Source of the DNA: Vulcanimicrobiota bacterium
Lineage (GTDB): Bacteria; Vulcanimicrobiota; Vulcanimicrobiia; Eremiobacterales; Eremiobacteraceae
DNA: 64,000 bases
Assembly: GCA_013290125.1 (NCBI GenBank)
Contig: JABCYQ010000001.1
Coordinates: 62,001 to 126,000 of the forward strand
Direction of reading: 5' to 3'
Shown: positions 2,671 to 62,102 of the stretch, in pieces
How positions within the stretch are numbered: the first letter of the stretch is position 1
How the letters are laid out: each line of letters begins with the position of its first letter
Made by a program: the position numbers and the translations under genes
The notes under the pieces: model-generated
Told to the model about the DNA's origin: nothing
Seen by the model: only the letters and a program-made list of their open reading frames with translations
The model's database searches: none

Positions 2671-3024
2671 CTACGCTCGGCGCTGCGCGTCCTGAGTTTC
2701 GACGAACCCGGCGATCGCGCTCCGGTCGCCTGGGTCGATGGACGTGAACGCGATGCCGTGATGGAACTTCTGCTCGTTGCGCGCGAAGAAACTCAACACC
2801 ACACGGCCCTTGGCCTGCACCGTGCGCTCGGTTCCGGGGAGGTGGAATTTGAGGCCGACCGCTGCTCGCGGAGGCAGGTCGTATGAAGCCACGAGACGCA
2901 TGCCGCCTGCGCCGAGGTCGAAAACCGAACCGTCGTGCGGCTGCGGCTCTCCCTCAAGTGAAAATTCGACCGGCAATGAGACGGCCACGCGGACGTATTG
3001 GCGCCTGCTCAGCTCACCGTTCAT
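2671..3024 (-). CDS. PilZ-domain protein
   Basis: A single PilZ domain, the c-di-GMP receptor fold. The N-terminus MNGELSRRQYVRVAV carries the RxxxR motif (R8 and R12), followed by the second motif as DLGAGG (36-41) in place of the common D/NxSxxG. The frame is open 23 codons further upstream. I chose the ATG at 3024 because the PilZ domain begins right after it and the extension is Arg-rich and low in family character. Probably a cytosolic adaptor for surface, motility or secretion responses. No cyclase or phosphodiesterase is visible in the window. Confidence 0.75.
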   Translation of the reverse strand: MNGELSRRQYVRVAVSLPVEFSLEGEPQPHDGSVFDLGAGGMRLVASYDLPPRAAVGLKFHLPGTERTVQAKGRVVLSFFARNEQKFHHGIAFTSIDPGDRSAIAGFVETQDAQRRA

Positions 3025-3151
3025 GCGGCATAGTATTCTCGCGAAGGTCACGAGCGCCTGCCGTTCGGAGCGCCACTTGCCGAGCGCGAACACGCCGGTG
3101 ATAGCGCCTGCGAGCGATCAGAACTGAACAAACGGGAGTGACTGCATCACC

Positions 3152-3511
3152 ATGATGGACTTCGCAACGGCGATCGATGGCACTTCGGGCTACTCGGGCT
3201 ATGGCTCGCTTGAGGCGGACGATTCGTTCGAATCGCAGTCGTCCGGCTGGCCGCTCGGCGATGAGGAAACGCAGCCGGTCGCACTCCAAGCGCCGAACTC
3301 GAACTACTGCTTTGGCGATCAAGGCGACTCGGAAATAGCTGCGCTCCAAAAGCAACTTGGCGAACAGCAGACCGAGATCGACCAACTGCAACGCGAGTTT
3401 CGGAGCCTCGGCGGGGGCGGCACGGAACCGAAGGCACCGCCATGCGAGGGTCCTCCTCGCGGCCGCATCATGCAGCCCTTCGACGTATCTGCGCGGCGGC
3501 CGGAACTCTAA
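3152..3511 (+). CDS. Hypothetical protein with short coiled coil
   Basis: A 119-residue frame starting with two ATGs. The N-terminal half is rich in Ser, Gly, Asp and Glu and looks disordered. A segment near residues 60-85 (EIAALQKQLGEQQTEIDQL) has a clear heptad pattern suggesting a short coiled coil. The tail is Gly/Pro-rich. No signal peptide or family was recognised. It is divergent from the PilZ gene and its stop overlaps the convergent PLP-lyase stop by four bases. It may be a real small scaffold protein, but chance coding in this GC-rich region is possible. Confidence 0.42.
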   Translation: MMDFATAIDGTSGYSGYGSLEADDSFESQSSGWPLGDEETQPVALQAPNSNYCFGDQGDSEIAALQKQLGEQQTEIDQLQREFRSLGGGGTEPKAPPCEGPPRGRIMQPFDVSARRPEL

Positions 3512-4776
3512 CTGGTCGTTTCAACTTCATTGGCAGCGTTGATCGCAGCCAGCACGCCGTGGCTCGAATCCAATCCGCCTTGCACGTACACCTCGAACGG
3601 CTCGCGCACGGGCGCATCGCAAGACAGTTCCATCGTTGAACCCGATATGAACGCGCCATCGGCCATCAGCACCGGATCGGCGTAACCAGGCACCGCGCCG
3701 GGCACGGGCATTGCGCGCGCGTTGACCGGCAGCATGCGCTGCAGGCCGCGAGCGAACGCCATCAGTTTTTTGGGTGAACCGAGCCGCAACGCTTGGATCG
3801 TATCCGTGCGCGCTGCGCCGCACTCGGGATCCACGACGTAGCCGAGTTCGGCGAAAAGCGCGGCCGTGAAATCCATGATCTTCAAACTTTCAACGACCGC
3901 GCGCGGAGCGCGGTGCAATCCGGCGAGCAGCGAGCGGATCGCACCCAGCGTTGGCCCCACGGCGGAACCCAATCCCGGCGCGAATACGCGCTCGGCGACA
4001 CAGTCGACGATATCTTTCTTGCCGGCCACGTACGCGCCGGATTCGGCGAGCCCACCGCCCGGATTCTTGATGAGCGACCCGACCACGGCGTCGGCGCCCA
4101 CGGCGCATGGTTCGCGCTCTTCCACGAGTTCGCCATAACAATTGTCGACGACGACCAAAGCGTTCGGCGCACGGTCGCGGATCGTATTCACTAGCCACTC
4201 GATCGACGCGATGTCGAGCGACGGGCGGACCGCGTAGCCGCGAGATCGCTGGACGAATACGACGTCGGGCGCGCGATCGAGAGCGGCGACGAGATCGGCC
4301 GAAGCGGGCCGCGCTCCCGACATCCACGGGACCTCGTCGTAATCGATTCCCCGGCTGCAAAGACCGCGCGGATGATCCACGAGCGACATCCGCAGTGTAT
4401 CGTACGGGCTGCCGGTCGCGGAGAGGAGCCGCATGCCCGGCTCCAGCAGCGCGGCGAGAGTGGCGACGATCGCCTGCGTGCCGCTCGCGAGTTGGATGCG
4501 CGCAAGCGCCGATTCTGCGTCCATGCAGTCCGCGACGAGGCCTTCGTACGCTTCTCGGCCGCGATCGTGATAACCGTAGCCGGTGGTCCCAGCCAGATGG
4601 CCGTCGTGCAGATCTGCTTTGGTAAAAGCGCGTCGCACTTTTGCAAACACGCTGAACCCTTGTTCGTCGCGAGCACGCCAAGCCGGAAGCGCGCGCTCGA
4701 TGGCGGCTTCGGCAGCTTTAAACACCCGTTTGCTGATCTCGAGATCGGCGACAGCGGCGCGCAGCCTATCGATCAT
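3508..4776 (-). CDS. PLP-dependent lyase, aluminium-resistance (YnbB-like) family
   Basis: A 422-residue fold-type I PLP enzyme of the aluminium-resistance / methionine gamma-lyase-like family. Key features are the phosphate-binding region QLASGTQAI (about 95-103), the Asp that contacts the PLP pyridine in VVVDNCYGEL (D211) and the PLP lysine in SLIKNPGGG (K237). Members are related to Cys/Met-metabolism enzymes, but the physiological substrate of this branch is not settled. Its start overlaps the end of the EIIC gene by 11 bp, so the two are probably translated together. Confidence 0.88.
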   Translation of the reverse strand: MIDRLRAAVADLEISKRVFKAAEAAIERALPAWRARDEQGFSVFAKVRRAFTKADLHDGHLAGTTGYGYHDRGREAYEGLVADCMDAESALARIQLASGTQAIVATLAALLEPGMRLLSATGSPYDTLRMSLVDHPRGLCSRGIDYDEVPWMSGARPASADLVAALDRAPDVVFVQRSRGYAVRPSLDIASIEWLVNTIRDRAPNALVVVDNCYGELVEEREPCAVGADAVVGSLIKNPGGGLAESGAYVAGKKDIVDCVAERVFAPGLGSAVGPTLGAIRSLLAGLHRAPRAVVESLKIMDFTAALFAELGYVVDPECGAARTDTIQALRLGSPKKLMAFARGLQRMLPVNARAMPVPGAVPGYADPVLMADGAFISGSTMELSCDAPVREPFEVYVQGGLDSSHGVLAAINAANEVETTS

Positions 4777-6064
4777 CGTGGGTCTCGCCGAGCAGGCGCT
4801 CCGGATGCCGCTCCACCTCCAGCTCGTGCTCGCGAATGGCGGTCGCCGAGCGCACGAGTTCTTCCGCTTGTTCCGGTTCGCGGCTGATGGACGATTCGAA
4901 CGAGCGTAGGAAAGGAGCGTATGCGATCGCGCCCATTATGACGTTCACCGCGACCAAGACCACGGCGCGCCAGTCGCGACCGGTCAGGAGCCACGCGCTG
5001 ACAAATGCAGGCAGCAGATTGACCGGCGGGATCCAGAACACGGTCTTGTCGACCAATCCGAGCGCCATCGCTGCATACGTCAGCGTCGCGAGGATGAGCG
5101 GAACGCCCACGAACGGCAATGCCAATGTCGGATTCATGACGAGCGGTATGCCGAAAATGAGCGGCTCATTGATGTTGGCGAGCGACGGTACGAGCGATGC
5201 GAGCGCGAGCTTTCGCAGCCGCGCGACGCGCGATCGAAACATGAGCAACGCCAGCGAAAGCGTGGCGCCGGATCCGCCCGGGAAATAGAAGACCGCCAAA
5301 GCGATCGTGACGATATGCGGCGGCGTCTGGTGGTTTAGGTATGCTTGGCTGTTCTGATCGAGCGCGTGCAGATACACCGGCGTGATGATCGCCGAGAGGA
5401 ACGCGGGCCCATGAACGCCCGCGCACCAGAGCAGCGTCTGCAAGAGCACGACCACGAGCAGCCCCGGCAGCGTGTCGCCGACAGCGACAAGCGGTTTGAT
5501 GATCGGCAACAGCAGATCTGCGAGGCTGACGCCGGCTGCGGCCGGCACGACGAACAACAGAGCAGACGCTGTGGTCGCGGCCGCGGCCGCTTCGAAACGC
5601 GGCAGCAGCGCGTATGCCACGCGCAGACATTGAGCGGTCACGAGCGCGACGATGAGCGCCAGGAATATGCTCGTCGACGCGATCTGCACGATCGCAGTCC
5701 ACGGATGAAGACGCGAATCGACCGGCAACGAGATGTAAAACGCGCCGAGACTCAAGACGACGGCGAGCGCGCGATCGTAGCCGAAGGTCCGCGCAAGGCG
5801 TTCGGCGAGAAAGGCCGCAAGTGCGACGCCCATCGCGCCGAAGCCCGCTCGGTAAGCCGCGAAGAACGACGTCGTAAGGTCGGGTCCGTGCCCGACGCCC
5901 CACGCGACCGCGGTGACCGCGACGAGTGCCGCGAAGGACGGGCCGATCGCTTCGCGCACGGCTGCCATGTGCGGTTCGTCGGCGGCGCGGCGAAGCACCG
6001 GAAAAAGCCGCTGCTCTAATGCGGCGACTGCGTGCTCGAATCGGCCGATCCGGCCGACGCTCAA
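4766..6064 (-). CDS. Orphan PTS EIIC permease, lactose/cellobiose (ChbC/CelB) type
   Basis: A 432-residue polytopic membrane protein of the PTS EIIC lactose/cellobiose superfamily. About ten hydrophobic segments are visible. The transport motifs are kept: WCAGVHG (213-219, with the conserved His) and NINEPLIFGIP (297-307, with the conserved Glu). There is no fused IIB or IIA domain, only a charged tail of about 50 residues. No EI, HPr, IIA or IIB gene lies in this window. It sits between the C26 hydrolase upstream (12 bp) and the PLP lyase downstream (11 bp overlap), so it may move the substrate or product of one of them. Confidence 0.88.
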   Translation of the reverse strand: MSVGRIGRFEHAVAALEQRLFPVLRRAADEPHMAAVREAIGPSFAALVAVTAVAWGVGHGPDLTTSFFAAYRAGFGAMGVALAAFLAERLARTFGYDRALAVVLSLGAFYISLPVDSRLHPWTAIVQIASTSIFLALIVALVTAQCLRVAYALLPRFEAAAAATTASALLFVVPAAAGVSLADLLLPIIKPLVAVGDTLPGLLVVVLLQTLLWCAGVHGPAFLSAIITPVYLHALDQNSQAYLNHQTPPHIVTIALAVFYFPGGSGATLSLALLMFRSRVARLRKLALASLVPSLANINEPLIFGIPLVMNPTLALPFVGVPLILATLTYAAMALGLVDKTVFWIPPVNLLPAFVSAWLLTGRDWRAVVLVAVNVIMGAIAYAPFLRSFESSISREPEQAEELVRSATAIREHELEVERHPERLLGETHDDR

Positions 6065-6076
6065 TGCGCGACTATC

Positions 6077-6841
6077 CTACGCGGATCCGGCAGTCGACGG
6101 CTTGGCGCGACGGTGCGCGCGCGCAGCCGCGTGCTCGACCAACGCGCGGAACAAGCGCCGGCTCGGCTCATCTCGTCCGACGAGTTCTTCAGGATGCCAC
6201 TGAACGCCGATGTAGAACGGATGTCCGTCGTCCGCCTCGATGCCCTCGATCGTGCCGTCGCGCGTCATGGCTACGACTCGCAATCCGTACGCCACGCGGC
6301 GCACCGCTTGATGGTGCATCGTGTTCGTCTCGATGCAGACGGCGTCGACGGCCTGCGCGAGCGCGGAGTTCGTCTGGATATCGACCGGATGCGTCGGCTC
6401 CTGGCGCGAGTGACCGGGCGTCTGCTGATGTTCGATCGCGTGGCCGTCCGAGGAATCGTAGAGATCTTCGATATCCTCGAACAGCGTGCCGCCGAGCGCG
6501 ACGTTGACCACTTGACAGCCGCGGCAGATCGCAAGCGTCGGAATCCCTGCGCGCTTTGCCACGCGCGCCGCTTCCAGTTCCAATGCATCTCGATCGGCGG
6601 ACGAGGTATCGATCGACGGGTGTGGGCGACCGGCGTATTCGTCCGGCGAAACGTCGCCGCCGCCCGGGAGCAGCAGGCCATCGTATTCGGAGATGATCGC
6701 CGCGACTTGTTCTGGCGTGAAATTTCCATAAACGAGGGTCGGCTCGCCGCCCGCCTGCTCGACGGCATGACGGTAGGTGGCCCAATGGTCGCGCGCCGCG
6801 GCCTCTTGGACCCCGACGGTGATAGCGATTGACGGTTTCAT
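6077..6841 (-). CDS. Gamma-glutamyl hydrolase-like, class I GATase (peptidase C26, PuuD-like)
   Basis: A 254-residue class I glutamine amidotransferase-like hydrolase of the C26 family. The group includes PuuD, which splits gamma-glutamyl-GABA. The oxyanion region LLLPGGGDVSP (57-67), the nucleophile in AICRGCQ (C106) and the His/Glu of GVQWHPEE (H216 and E218) are all present, so it should be active. There is no signal peptide, so it should be cytosolic. It leads a three-gene minus-strand group with EIIC and a PLP lyase. The real substrate is probably a gamma-glutamyl amide, but no polyamine genes are visible nearby. Confidence 0.9.
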   Translation of the reverse strand: MKPSIAITVGVQEAAARDHWATYRHAVEQAGGEPTLVYGNFTPEQVAAIISEYDGLLLPGGGDVSPDEYAGRPHPSIDTSSADRDALELEAARVAKRAGIPTLAICRGCQVVNVALGGTLFEDIEDLYDSSDGHAIEHQQTPGHSRQEPTHPVDIQTNSALAQAVDAVCIETNTMHHQAVRRVAYGLRVVAMTRDGTIEGIEADDGHPFYIGVQWHPEELVGRDEPSRRLFRALVEHAAARAHRRAKPSTAGSA

Positions 6842-6858: not shown

Positions 6859-6886
6859 GGCGGACCTTAATGGTCCGCCTTTTTTT
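6859..6886 (+). terminator. Hairpin plus T7, on the antisense side of lexA and the C26 gene
   Basis: A perfect 8-bp stem GGCGGACC/GGTCCGCC (6859-6866 with 6872-6879) with a TTAAT loop, then seven T on the plus strand. Both flanking genes are on the minus strand, where the hairpin is preceded by the A-run instead. It would therefore stop plus-strand (antisense) transcription entering lexA. Confidence 0.7.
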
Positions 6887-7504
6887 CTATAATTTGCGGA
6901 TGAGCGCCGTCACTTTGCCGACGATCTTGGCCTTCGTGGTGTAGACGGGCTCCATGAATTTGTTCTCGGGCTGCAGACGCACTCTGCCGTTTTCCAGGTA
7001 AAAGGTTTTGATGGTAGCTTCCCAGTCGCCGCCTTGCGTGTCATCGGGATATGCCACGACGATGTCGCCGTTTTCGGCCACCGGCTGCGGGTTGACGACG
7101 ACGAGATCACCGTCGAGGATCGCCGCGTCGACCATGGAGTCGCCCTTGACGCGGAGCATGAACGATCCAGAATTCTTTGCGAAATGCGCCGGCACGCTGA
7201 TGCGCTCGTCGACATTTTGGATGGCTTCGTAGTTCCAGCCCGCGGCGACGCGGCCGACAACCGGAAGCGAGAGGGTCTCCTCGCGCGATTCATTTCCAGA
7301 GACAAGGGCGCGGGGCTTGGTCGGATCGCGCTTGATCAGACCTTTCTTCTCTAGCGTGCGGAGGTGGCATTGCACGGTGCTGCTGGACGAGAGGCCGACG
7401 CGCTCACCGATCTCACGGACTGACGGCGGATAGCCATGCTCGCGGCGAAAATCACGAATGGTATCTAGGATGGCTTGTTGACGCGGCGTCGTCTTGCGAT
7501 CCAC
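6887..7504 (-). CDS. lexA: LexA SOS repressor
   Basis: Represses DNA-damage genes and cleaves itself when RecA filaments form. The 205-residue protein has an N-terminal winged HTH (PPSVREIGERVGLSSSSTVQ, about 26-45). The Ala-Gly cleavage site is in GRVAAGW (A88-G89). The peptidase S24 dyad is S123 in GDSMVD and K166 in ATIKTFY. Its promoter (TTGCAA, 17 bp, TACGAT) overlaps a perfect SOS box, so autorepression is expected. It is divergent from a LysM protein resembling the SOS division inhibitor YneA, the same arrangement as in Firmicutes. Confidence 0.97.
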   Translation of the reverse strand: MDRKTTPRQQAILDTIRDFRREHGYPPSVREIGERVGLSSSSTVQCHLRTLEKKGLIKRDPTKPRALVSGNESREETLSLPVVGRVAAGWNYEAIQNVDERISVPAHFAKNSGSFMLRVKGDSMVDAAILDGDLVVVNPQPVAENGDIVVAYPDDTQGGDWEATIKTFYLENGRVRLQPENKFMEPVYTTKAKIVGKVTALIRKL

Positions 7505-10720: not shown

Positions 10721-10750
10721 GGGGCCGACGCTAGTCGGCCCCCTTTTTTT
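10721..10750 (+). terminator. pnp terminator; GGGCCGAC palindrome, GCTA loop
   Basis: A 9-bp stem GGGGCCGAC/GTCGGCCCC (10721-10729 with 10734-10742) with a GCTA loop, then C and seven T. It is the best terminator-like copy of the dispersed palindrome and lies 23 bp after the pnp stop. Confidence 0.85.
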
Positions 10751-17501: not shown

Positions 17502-17523
17502 GGGGCCGACTTCATGTCGGCCC
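17502..17523 (+). repeat. GGGCCGAC palindrome, TTCAT loop
   Basis: GGGCCGAC (17503-17510) and GTCGGCCC (17516-17523) with a TTCAT loop, 11 bp after the binding-protein stop. There is no T-run. It lies between convergent genes. Confidence 0.7.
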
Positions 17524-20574: not shown

Positions 20575-21264
20575 CTAATCGCGCAGCCCGCGTCGAAGGT
20601 GATGCGTCAGTATCGAGAGCTCGGAAGCAAGATCGATCGTGCGCACGGCGACTCTCGCCGGCAATTTCAGTTTTGTCGGCGCGAAGTTGAGCAGCGCGCC
20701 GATGCCGCACGCGGTGAGCCTTTCGGCGACCGACTGCGCGGCGTCCGGCGGCACGGTCACGACGCCCATGGAGCATTCGAGCGCCGGCAGAACTTTCTCC
20801 ATGTCGTCTACGTGACTGATGCGCACGCCATGCCATCGCGTGCCCACGAGTGACGGATCGCTGTCGAAGATGCCGCCGATATGGAATTTCTCTTCTCGAT
20901 ATTCCAGAAATCCCGCGAGCGCATGACCGAGATAGCCGAACCCGACGATCGCGATGCGCCAGTCGCGATCGAGCCCGAGCAGACGGCCGAGCTTCCGCAT
21001 GAGCCCGACGACGTTATAGCCCTGACCGCGACGGCCGAGCGGCCCAAGCCGCGACAAATCCTTGCGCACTTGTGCCGACGATATGCCGCGGCCGACTCGG
21101 CCTGCGAGTTCCTCCGACGTGAGCAGCGTGATGCCTTCCCGCACACTGTCTTCGAGACCCCGATGATAGAGGAACAAGCGCGGCAAGTTGATCACCGCGG
21201 CCCCTTCCGGCCTGAGGACGCGACGGGAGGGCTTAGCCGCCGCTGGCTTTCGCGCGCTCTTCAT
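20575..21264 (-). CDS. rex: Redox-sensing repressor Rex
   Basis: Senses the NADH/NAD+ ratio and represses respiratory and fermentative genes when NADH is low. From the ATG at 21264 the protein has 229 residues. An N-terminal winged HTH (about 25-85) includes ISSAQVRKDLSRLG and GRRGQGYNV. The Rossmann domain begins IAIVGFGYLGHALAGF (105-120) and GALLNFAP lies near the end. The ATG overlaps the hemL stop as ATGA, so the start is well fixed. Linkage of rex to hem genes is also known from actinobacteria. Confidence 0.95.
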   Translation of the reverse strand: MKSARKPAAAKPSRRVLRPEGAAVINLPRLFLYHRGLEDSVREGITLLTSEELAGRVGRGISSAQVRKDLSRLGPLGRRGQGYNVVGLMRKLGRLLGLDRDWRIAIVGFGYLGHALAGFLEYREEKFHIGGIFDSDPSLVGTRWHGVRISHVDDMEKVLPALECSMGVVTVPPDAAQSVAERLTACGIGALLNFAPTKLKLPARVAVRTIDLASELSILTHHLRRGLRD

Positions 21265-22541
21265 GCGAGCGCCGCACGCGCGCTTTCGATCGTGGATCGT
21301 ATGTCGTCTGGGCTGTGCGCGCTTGAGACGAACGCCGCCTCGAACTGCGAGGGCGCGAGGTACACGCCGCGGTCGAGCATGGAATGGAAAAACGCCGCGT
21401 ATGCTTTGGTGTCGGCGGCTTGCGCCGATGCGAGATCCGTGACCGGCGCGGCGCTGAAGAACAAACCCCACATCGAGCCCGCGCGCGCGAACTGCGCCGG
21501 CACACCTGCTTGCGCGAACGCCGTGCGCAAGCCGCTGACGAGCGTTTCCGTCATCGCCTCCAACGTCTCGTAGACGCCGAGCCGGGTGAGTTCGCGAAGT
21601 TGCGCGATGCCCGCGGCCATGGCAAGCGGGTTCCCCGAGAGCGTTCCCGCTTGGTAGACATCGCCCACCGGAGCGAGGCGGTCCATGATCGCGGCCTTGC
21701 CGCCAAAGGCGCCGACAGGCAGACCGGCGCCGATGATCTTACCGAGGACCGTGAGGTCCGGCGTGATCCCAAACGTGGTCTGAGCGCCTCCATACGCGAC
21801 GCGAAATCCGGTCATGACTTCATCGAAGATCAAGAGTGCGCCGGAGAGCGTGCAAAGATCGCGCACGCTCTGCAGATAGCCTGACGCCGGAAGGACGAGA
21901 CCCATGTTGCCGGCGACCGGCTCGACGATGACGGCGGCGATCTGTTCCGGATAGCGCGCGAACGCTTCGCGGAGAGCGGCGACATCGTTGTACGGCACGA
22001 CGATCGTGTCGGCCGCTTGGGCTTTTGTCACGCCGGGCGAGTTCGGAATGCCGAGCGTCAGCGCGCCCGACCCCGCTGCGACGAGCAGTCCGTCGGCATG
22101 GCCGTGATAGCAGCCGGCGCACTTGACGATCTTCTCGCGGGCCGTATGTGCGCGCGCGAGCCGCAGTGCGCTCATGCACGCCTCGGTTCCCGAGTTGACG
22201 AAACGAACCCGTTCGATGGACGGCAGCGCGAGCCGCACGAGTTCGGCAAGCGTCGTTTCAGCCGCGGTCGGTGCGCCGAACGACGTTCCCAGTCGCGCGG
22301 CGTTCTCGATCGCTTGGACCACCGCTTCGTGTGCGTGCCCTAAGATCAGCGGGCCCCACGAACCCACATAGTCGATATACTCGCGGCCGTCTTCGTCAAA
22401 GACGTGCGAGCCTTGCCCGCGCGCGATGAACAGCGGCGTGCCGCCGACCGCGCGAAATGCGCGGACGGGCGAGTTCACGCCGCCGGGTATCACTTTGTTG
22501 GCCGCGTCGAAAAGCGCCGCAGACCGTGGATGCGTGTTCAT
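21261..22541 (-). CDS. hemL: Glutamate-1-semialdehyde 2,1-aminomutase HemL
   Basis: PLP enzyme that moves the amino group of glutamate-1-semialdehyde to give 5-aminolevulinate. The 426-residue length is typical. It begins with VIPGGVNSPVRAF, has YVGSWGPLILGHAH (58-71), the PLP Asp in LLIFDEVMTGFR (about D240) and the Schiff-base Lys in VLGKIIGAGLPVGAFGG (K268). It overlaps the mobA-like gene by four bases upstream and rex by four downstream. Confidence 0.97.
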   Translation of the reverse strand: MNTHPRSAALFDAANKVIPGGVNSPVRAFRAVGGTPLFIARGQGSHVFDEDGREYIDYVGSWGPLILGHAHEAVVQAIENAARLGTSFGAPTAAETTLAELVRLALPSIERVRFVNSGTEACMSALRLARAHTAREKIVKCAGCYHGHADGLLVAAGSGALTLGIPNSPGVTKAQAADTIVVPYNDVAALREAFARYPEQIAAVIVEPVAGNMGLVLPASGYLQSVRDLCTLSGALLIFDEVMTGFRVAYGGAQTTFGITPDLTVLGKIIGAGLPVGAFGGKAAIMDRLAPVGDVYQAGTLSGNPLAMAAGIAQLRELTRLGVYETLEAMTETLVSGLRTAFAQAGVPAQFARAGSMWGLFFSAAPVTDLASAQAADTKAYAAFFHSMLDRGVYLAPSQFEAAFVSSAHSPDDIRSTIESARAALA

Positions 22542-34102: not shown

Positions 34103-34124
34103 GGGGCCGACTTTATGTCGGCCC
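34103..34124 (+). repeat. GGGCCGAC palindrome, TTTAT loop
   Basis: GGGCCGAC (34104-34111) and GTCGGCCC (34117-34124), loop TTTAT; identical in core and loop to the copy at 2597-2618. First of an ordered pair. Confidence 0.78.
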
Positions 34125-34153: not shown

Positions 34154-34181
34154 GGGGCCGACGCCAGTCGGCCCCTTTTTT
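34154..34181 (+). terminator. PLD-gene terminator; GGGCCGAC palindrome, GCCA loop
   Basis: A 9-bp stem GGGGCCGAC/GTCGGCCCC (34154-34162 with 34167-34175), GCCA loop, then six T. It can terminate the PLD transcript and is the second member of the pair. Confidence 0.82.
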
Positions 34182-34927: not shown

Positions 34928-34948
34928 GGGCCGACATAAAGTCGGCCC
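34928..34948 (-). repeat. GGGCCGAC palindrome, ATAAA loop (reverse orientation)
   Basis: GGGCCGAC (34928-34935) and GTCGGCCC (34941-34948) around ATAAA, the reverse complement of the TTTAT form. It lies between the convergent SanA-like and tatD genes. Confidence 0.75.
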
Positions 34949-61937: not shown

Positions 61938-62102
61938 TTGACTGTACCGCTCGCACCTTATACGTCAATGGGAATTGGTGAGAATGGCCTGAGAGAAACC
62001 CTGTTCGAAGCTCCTTATCATCGGTCGGCGCGTGCATCCGCCGTGGGGCGCCGTTAGGCACGCGCGACGAGTGTCATCGTCGCTGATACAACGGCCGCGG
62101 TT

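Follow-up and report, generated by a model that had tools for sequence, protein, structure and literature searches.

What does a permease of the sugar phosphotransferase system (PTS) do in cells in which the other parts of that system are not found? EIIC proteins are group translocators that normally function within a sugar-phosphorylating uptake system and rely on EIIB for phosphorylation. The question is raised by a locus in the stretch of DNA analysed here, hereafter the window: 64,000 nucleotides (positions 62,001 to 126,000) of contig JABCYQ010000001.1, from the assembly GCA_013290125.1 of a Vulcanimicrobiota bacterium. In it, a gene for an EIIC-type permease lies between a gene for a gamma-glutamyl hydrolase-like protein of the C26 family and a gene for a pyridoxal phosphate (PLP) enzyme. 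An original prediction, made from the letters of the window alone, took the three genes for an uptake-and-breakdown module in which the EIIC might act as a facilitator. We report here that PTS-free EIICs paired with a gene for a YnbB-like PLP enzyme are a real and conserved natural feature. Since a lone EIIC is kept and tied to an enzyme gene in most sampled genomes of a PTS-less class of bacteria, the EIIC of this class is, judged from its sequence, most likely an independent transporter.

The EIIC-type permease and its PTS partners

The window EIIC has the sequence and fold of the Lac family of PTS permeases. It matches PF02378 with 87.4 bits (cut-off 30.7), the single match to PTS_EIIC in the window's assembly, and scores 170.5 bits against the NCBIfam profile lacE (TIGR00410), below the subfamily cut-off of 236. 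The closest solved relative is, by structure title, a diacetylchitobiose EIIC, ChbC (3qnq; phmmer E 3.8e-30). An AlphaFold2 model (pLDDT 85.2, pTM 0.80) was superposed on 3qnq by VIA-align with a Z of 28.2, 365 aligned residues, 27% identity and a root-mean-square deviation (rmsd) of 6.8, and Foldseek gave TM values of 0.54-0.55. Structure matches ranking below the PTS families (MATE, urea-transporter and similar) had Z below 7 and were judged to reflect common helical arrangements.

The two transport motifs singled out in the original prediction were recovered at EIIC residues 213-219 (WCAGVHG) and 297-307 (NINEPLIFGIP). They contain H218 and E300, which align with the pocket residues His250 and Glu334 of ChbC; in the window the pocket His and Glu expected of a working PTS permease are intact. 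We aligned 42 rows of EIICs linked to the PLP gene, from 40 genomes (G046 and G034 twice), 37 of them from the class and five from other classes; fragments and duplicates (L016, L019, L035, L064, L067-L070) were left out. The pocket His is present in all 37 class rows and in families f4 and f8, and it is replaced in three of the five rows of other classes, by Asn in f7 and by Gln in f9. The pocket Glu is present in 41 of the 42 rows, with Asp in L063. In a second EIIC of f9 (L043, L047), GVHG reads GVRG (His to Arg) and the cytoplasmic loop described below is kept. The ratio of non-synonymous to synonymous substitution (dN/dS) between the window genes and those of the same-genus genome G073 was 0.05 for the EIIC, with 0.10 and 0.09 for the PLP and C26 genes, respectively; the EIIC evolves under purifying selection.

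A working PTS permease would be expected to come with EI, HPr and a lactose-type IIB. We sampled 148 genomes of the phylum Eremiobacterota, in which the class comprises families f1, f2 and f3 (14, 98 and 4 genomes, 116 in total); the window's genome, G000, has 2.9 Mb in 55 contigs and is 95% complete. The search of this genome that the original prediction had called for detected no EI, no HPr (none at E 0.001; best E 0.63) and no lactose-type IIB (PF02302). Across the phylum, the profiles found HPr (PF00381) in 20, EI (PF05524) in 21 and IIB in 5 of the 148 genomes. Within the class, EI and HPr were each found in one of 116 genomes, in both cases G113, and PF02302 in none of the 116; the IIB search covered this one family and did not extend to IIA of the lactose type (PF02255). 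In G113 the HPr gene and EI frame adjoin a Dak1 dihydroxyacetone kinase gene; EI and HPr beside dihydroxyacetone kinase have a non-transporting use in known systems.

The linked EIICs also lack a stretch of sequence that other EIICs keep. The motif [VI]P..[VI]...F....P was present in 82 of 83 Lac-family reference EIICs (79 genomic, from the best matches listed, and 4 from plasmids), the remaining one being a Leu variant at one position, and in 18 of the 20 other EIICs of the phylum. None of the 42 linked rows contained it. The length between two anchor positions was 56-65 residues in linked EIICs versus 72-78 in the references, and in the AlphaFold2 model a turn at residues 154-158, between helices 121-153 and 159-177, replaces the loop. 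With helix 8-29 taken as the N-terminal amphipathic helix, those flanking the turn would be transmembrane helices 4 and 5 (TM4 and TM5). Sequence conservation is uneven along the protein. The 83 references agree to 90% or more in 72 columns; 36 of these columns are conserved in 80% or more of the 37 class rows, with 31 of the 36 at window residues 191-385, and 25 occur in less than 30% of class rows. In a tree, a branch supported at 100/100 separates the loopless EIICs from the remaining ones. For one EIIC of the Glc family, a passage of PMC12900739 describes a TM4-TM5 cytoplasmic loop that extends as far as the partner protomer's transport domain. The loop lost here would have served contact with EIIB, and its loss would reflect the loss of that contact. 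With EI and HPr not found in 115 of 116 class genomes, PF02302 IIB in 0 of 116 and the conserved loop motif deleted, the suggestion in the original prediction of an EIIC without phosphotransfer is well supported.

The EIIC and PLP enzyme genes as a pair

An EIIC homologue was found in 129 of the 148 phylum genomes and the PLP gene in 142, including all 85 genomes with a completeness of 90% or more and a contamination of 5% or less. We counted an EIIC gene as directly upstream when it lay on the same contig and strand with a gap of -300 to 400, leaving out PLP rows with E above 1e-6. Among the matches listed, this arrangement was present in 14/14 genomes of f1, 85/98 of f2 and 3/4 of f3, or 102 of the 116 class genomes, and in 6 of the 32 genomes of other classes. 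The class context, LexA-[C26]-EIIC-PLP-PilZ-FHA-PanB/C, is conserved as a whole. In other classes the order is HflX-EIIC-PLP (f4), DAHP synthase-EIIC-PLP (f7), EIIC-PLP-dihydropyrimidinase-like with a contig end upstream (f8) and CheX-like-EIIC-PLP (f9), these neighbours being named by eye. The pair, kept there among different visible neighbours, is the sole feature that these four families share, and they provide independent evidence of linkage.

In the window the C26 and EIIC genes are 12 bp apart and the EIIC gene overlaps the PLP gene, both as originally described; the overlap measures 11 bp. In each of 40 loci (39 genomes, G046 twice, pooled from two counts of 37 and 36 loci) a candidate start of the PLP gene lies ahead of the end of the EIIC gene. 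The overlap is exactly 4 nt in 29 of these loci and 8-32 nt in the remaining 11, which include the window and every one of the five loci from other classes. In one count the offset of -4 was seen 25 times in 36 loci and the next commonest 6 times. Translationally coupled genes are usually arranged with such a stop-start overlap, and we infer from the sequences that the EIIC and PLP genes are translationally coupled.

At the loci sampled outside the phylum the two genes were found apart. Among 79 other EIIC loci listed, a sample without the nearest phyla, none had the PLP gene within about 4.5 kb, as far as the contigs extend, and none of 19 full-length Bacillota PLP loci had an EIIC within 1.5 kb (the upstream side of L196 is cut by a contig end). 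The recognised neighbours at the Bacillota loci were HflX (6/19) and LexA (3/19). A limited open-licence search of PubMed Central found no paper on an EIIC of Eremiobacterota or on an EIIC beside ynbB.

The C26 gene adjoins the EIIC gene upstream in all 13 f1 loci with a visible upstream side. In f3 it does so clearly in two of three loci, the remaining one having a fragment. L019, with a C26 fragment of 44 residues at a contig end, was included in one count and below threshold in the other. The C26 gene was beside the EIIC in none of 23 f2 loci (22 genomes) and in none of the five loci from other classes, among which a single one has no visible upstream side. The C26 protein belongs to its family, and its score against the NCBIfam PuuD equivalog NF008471, 86.3 bits, is below the cut-off of 266. 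Conserved linkage thus holds for the EIIC-PLP pair and fails for the trio, which we reject as a unit since the f2 loci and those from other classes showed no C26 next to the EIIC; in the loci read, C26 is a lineage-specific addition in two families, outside the core pair.

The PLP enzyme, too, differs from what had been proposed, namely a general lyase of Cys/Met metabolism. It scores 19.5 bits against PF01053, below the cut-off of 27, and 396.6 bits, far above the cut-off, against PF06838, with a near full-length match; the PF07722 and PF02378 matches of the other two proteins likewise exceed the Pfam cut-offs. Its closest solved structures are 3fd0, 3ht4 and 3jzl (E 2.2e-89 or better), residues 42-414 aligning to 3fd0. 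By these matches the enzyme is assigned to the YnbB or 'aluminum resistance' group of PF06838, and sulphur-amino-acid lyase was dropped as its default identity. At four loci of f13 and f15 that have no EIIC, the PLP gene adjoins a gene resembling that of glutamate racemase (Asp_Glu_race by Pfam in L165 and L173; by eye in L164 and L166).

According to passages of PMC5885033 and PMC6522883, YnbB of Bacillus subtilis is needed, with GsaB and YmfI, for the 5-aminopentanol modification of Lys32 of elongation factor P (EF-P), GsaB being a HemL paralogue. With a YnbB-like enzyme, breakdown of gamma-glutamyl compounds or sulphur amino acids is not the natural guess. The window's genome encodes an EF-P with a Lys-type loop (HVKPGKG) and has two strong HemL matches, of 613.7 and 501.9 bits, the second being below the HemL cut-off and a candidate GsaB. 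The best match lies in the window itself, at 21264-22523. YwlG (DUF436) was found in 0 of the 148 phylum genomes and was dropped as support for the pathway; an EF-P role for the PLP enzyme is plausible. In f7 (L039:3498-5419), a PTS-type EIIC gene lies 47 bp from an EF-P gene, identified by Pfam, and is a second EIIC neighbour within the EF-P pathway besides YnbB.

Proposed transport without phosphorylation and its rivals

We propose that the EIIC-type permease has left the PTS and probably carries a glycoside, an oligosaccharide or an amino sugar in unphosphorylated form, as a facilitator or an ion-coupled carrier. The departure would have consisted of the loss of EI, HPr and IIB and the deletion of the loop motif, with the pocket residues kept in the class, and the predicted substrate would cross the inner membrane by an elevator movement. 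That the EIIC transports at all is part of the proposal, as are its direction, energy source and substrate.

Several observations weigh against this proposal. The match between the model and ChbC carries a large rmsd, and the searches for PTS partners had the scope given above. The reference EIICs are best matches to L033 and no random sample, with an IIB or IIA gene in the flank of just 32 of the 79 genomic ones, and the role assigned to the lost loop is something we infer. Two loopless EIICs, L042 and L046, do not adjoin a PLP gene and come from genomes, G005 and G009, in which EI, HPr and IIB were all found. A missing loop therefore does not always go with a missing PTS; the linked EIICs of G004 and G005 likewise coexist with a PTS. 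A clade of the linked EIICs apart from L042 and L046 is weakly supported, at 80 in one tree and in 13% of bootstrap trees in another. Linkage within the class proves little alone, since the whole neighbourhood is conserved there. Finally, in G040 and G060 LexA stands directly before the PLP gene with no EIIC between; the EIIC is thus not essential, and the PLP gene is retained where the EIIC is lost.

It is quite possible, though we would not bet on it, that the two genes are functionally unrelated, an ancestral EIIC having been inserted before ynbB and the overlapping architecture inherited: the Bacillota PLP genes beside HflX or LexA echo f4 and the class, respectively, and the EIIC alone was lost in two genomes (G040, G060), but the EIIC and PLP gene alone stay paired as other visible neighbours vary by family. 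Another reading, that the EIIC serves the YnbB-like enzyme by importing or exporting some compound that belongs to the EF-P 5-aminopentanol pathway or to whatever YnbB produces, strikes us as doubtful. The pair with overlapping frames is retained in five gene contexts, the genome has the Lys-type EF-P and the second HemL-like aminotransferase, an unlinked PTS-type EIIC of f7 adjoins efp, and a passage of PMC5885033 reports that ynbB, gsaB and ymfI are all needed for the modification in B. subtilis. Yet the PLP gene is kept without EIIC in G040, G060 and the Bacillota loci, a sugar-type pocket fits oddly, and YwlG was missing from all genomes sampled, although in B. subtilis it merely influences the level of modification. 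A residual PTS permease using undetected or very divergent EI, HPr and IIB is very improbable: the pocket His and Glu are retained in the class and IIA of PF02255 lay outside the searches, but the same searches detected HPr, EI and IIB in other genomes of the sample and in control genomes and, in the class, EI and HPr in G113 only, and the loop motif is gone. Least credible of all is the trio as a device for taking up and breaking down gamma-glutamyl or sulphur compounds; gene order and spacing in f1 and f3 agree with it, but conservation of the pair does not extend to C26, the PLP enzyme resembles YnbB, and no EIIC is known to us to carry such compounds.

A more specific version of the transport proposal, unlikely but somewhat better placed than service to YnbB, is that the EIIC imports peptidoglycan-derived sugars, such as anhydro-N-acetylmuramic acid or a disaccharide containing N-acetylglucosamine, in place of AmpG or MurP. 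AnmK is found in 106 of 116 class genomes, and the window's genome has a cluster, spanning about 8 kb, of AnmK, MurQ and a GH3 protein that is NagZ-like and resembles beta-N-acetylhexosaminidases (202.1 bits, slightly below the cut-off, which is 207). Among the neighbours scanned, 7 of 20 further loci with an EIIC or IIB in the phylum are near a wall-related gene: a MurQ-like or SIS protein and SpoIID at L034, L216 and L217, SpoIID at L037, an M23 peptidase at L036 and Amidase_3 at L049 and L051. The cluster and these neighbours suggest cell-wall sugar salvage. The nearest solved relative, a diacetylchitobiose EIIC, and the glutamate-racemase-like neighbours of the PLP gene at some EIIC-less loci agree with this. 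However, AnmK, MurQ, NagZ-like or wall genes were not seen adjoining a linked EIIC, the f9 EIICs carry Gln at the pocket His, and G060 has AnmK and no EIIC. Ten class genomes lack the EIIC and ten lack AnmK, with two in common, so co-loss gave no convincing correlation; in the rest of the phylum, AnmK occurs in 4 of the 6 genomes with the pair and in 13 of the 26 without it. The fuller conjecture, that the loopless EIIC is a phosphorylation-independent importer of cell-wall sugars that stands in for AmpG or MurP in a PTS-less class and is made together with the YnbB-type enzyme, we hold to be a long shot. As a separate observation, L049 (f10) and L051 (f14) are solo EIICs with the loop motif beside an N-acetylmuramoyl-L-alanine amidase, in genomes in which PF02302 IIB was not found.

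Whichever substrate the proposed independent carrier has, class-wide EIICs that keep the pocket but lack the donor proteins and one loop offer a direct route to the function of that loop. Natural PTS-free EIICs also allow one to ask whether an EIIC can act as a plain carrier, and the poorly understood YnbB family gains a conserved membrane-protein partner gene.

Surroundings of the locus and known systems

The three genes were found on the minus strand at the positions originally given (Table 1). Between the PLP and PilZ genes, on the opposite strand, lies an open reading frame of 119 aa (3152-3511, plus strand) with no Pfam match, the portion of which within the locus is 78% identical in the same-genus genome G073. 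Between lexA and the C26 gene, at 6859-6886, a perfect hairpin (GGCGGACC/GGTCCGCC) runs, on the plus strand, into a stretch of seven T, a terminator orientation opposite to both genes. Short-loop hairpins of the form GGGCCGAC...GTCGGCCC occur at 2598-2651, 10722-10741, 17503-17523, 34104-34124, 34155-34174 and 34928-34948, and GGGCCGAC has 18 matches in the window versus 4.4 expected. The hairpin pair at 2598-2651, just past the PilZ gene, may represent terminators or a small repeat family.

Table 1. Positions in the window of the genes and sites discussed.
Feature	Position	Strand	Remarks
C26 / PuuD-like gamma-glutamyl hydrolase	6077..6841	-	254 aa; PF07722 189.9 bits
PTS-free EIIC-type permease (Lac/ChbC family)	4766..6064	-	432 aa, predicted TTG start; PF02378 87.4 bits
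YnbB-like PLP enzyme (PF06838, Met_gamma_lyase)	3508..4776	-	422 aa; 396.6 bits
Overlap of EIIC stop and PLP-gene start	4766..4776	-	11 nt
EIIC His218 (ChbC His250)	5411..5413	-	alignment to ChbC
EIIC Glu300 (ChbC Glu334)	5165..5167	-	alignment to ChbC
Short turn, EIIC residues 154-158, at the site of the VPxxVxxxFxxxxP loop of reference EIICs	5591..5605	-	
LexA, upstream neighbour conserved in the class	6887..7504	-	
PilZ-domain protein, frequent downstream neighbour in the class	2671..3093	-	

Among known systems, the window EIIC is closest to ChbC, with which it shares the fold over 365 residues and the equivalents of His250 and Glu334; it differs in that the loop motif is missing, EI, HPr and IIB were not found, and several reference-conserved N-terminal positions are lost in the linked EIICs. 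Canonical lactose/cellobiose PTS operons (IIB-IIC-IIA-6-phospho-glycosidase) have transport-domain motifs in common with the linked EIIC, and such gene rows occur in other families of the phylum (L034, L037 and L041; the GH4 of L037 by Pfam, the rest by eye). In contrast, G001, G004 and G005 have, in addition to PTS-type EIICs, a linked EIIC without adjoining partners.

The ynbA gene of B. subtilis corresponds to hflX. The ynbA-ynbB operon, as described in a passage of PMC5885033, resembles the present locus in its YnbB-family PLP enzyme and in the HflX-like neighbour of f4, which is also nearby in f7, but here an EIIC directly precedes the PLP gene, as in none of the 19 Bacillota loci. For the cell-wall reading only, there is a precedent for the replacement of AmpG: in Agrobacterium, according to an excerpt of PMC9790009, YejBEF-YepA is an unexpected transporter in its place. 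YejBEF-YepA is an ABC transporter, and we claim no sequence relation between it and the EIIC.

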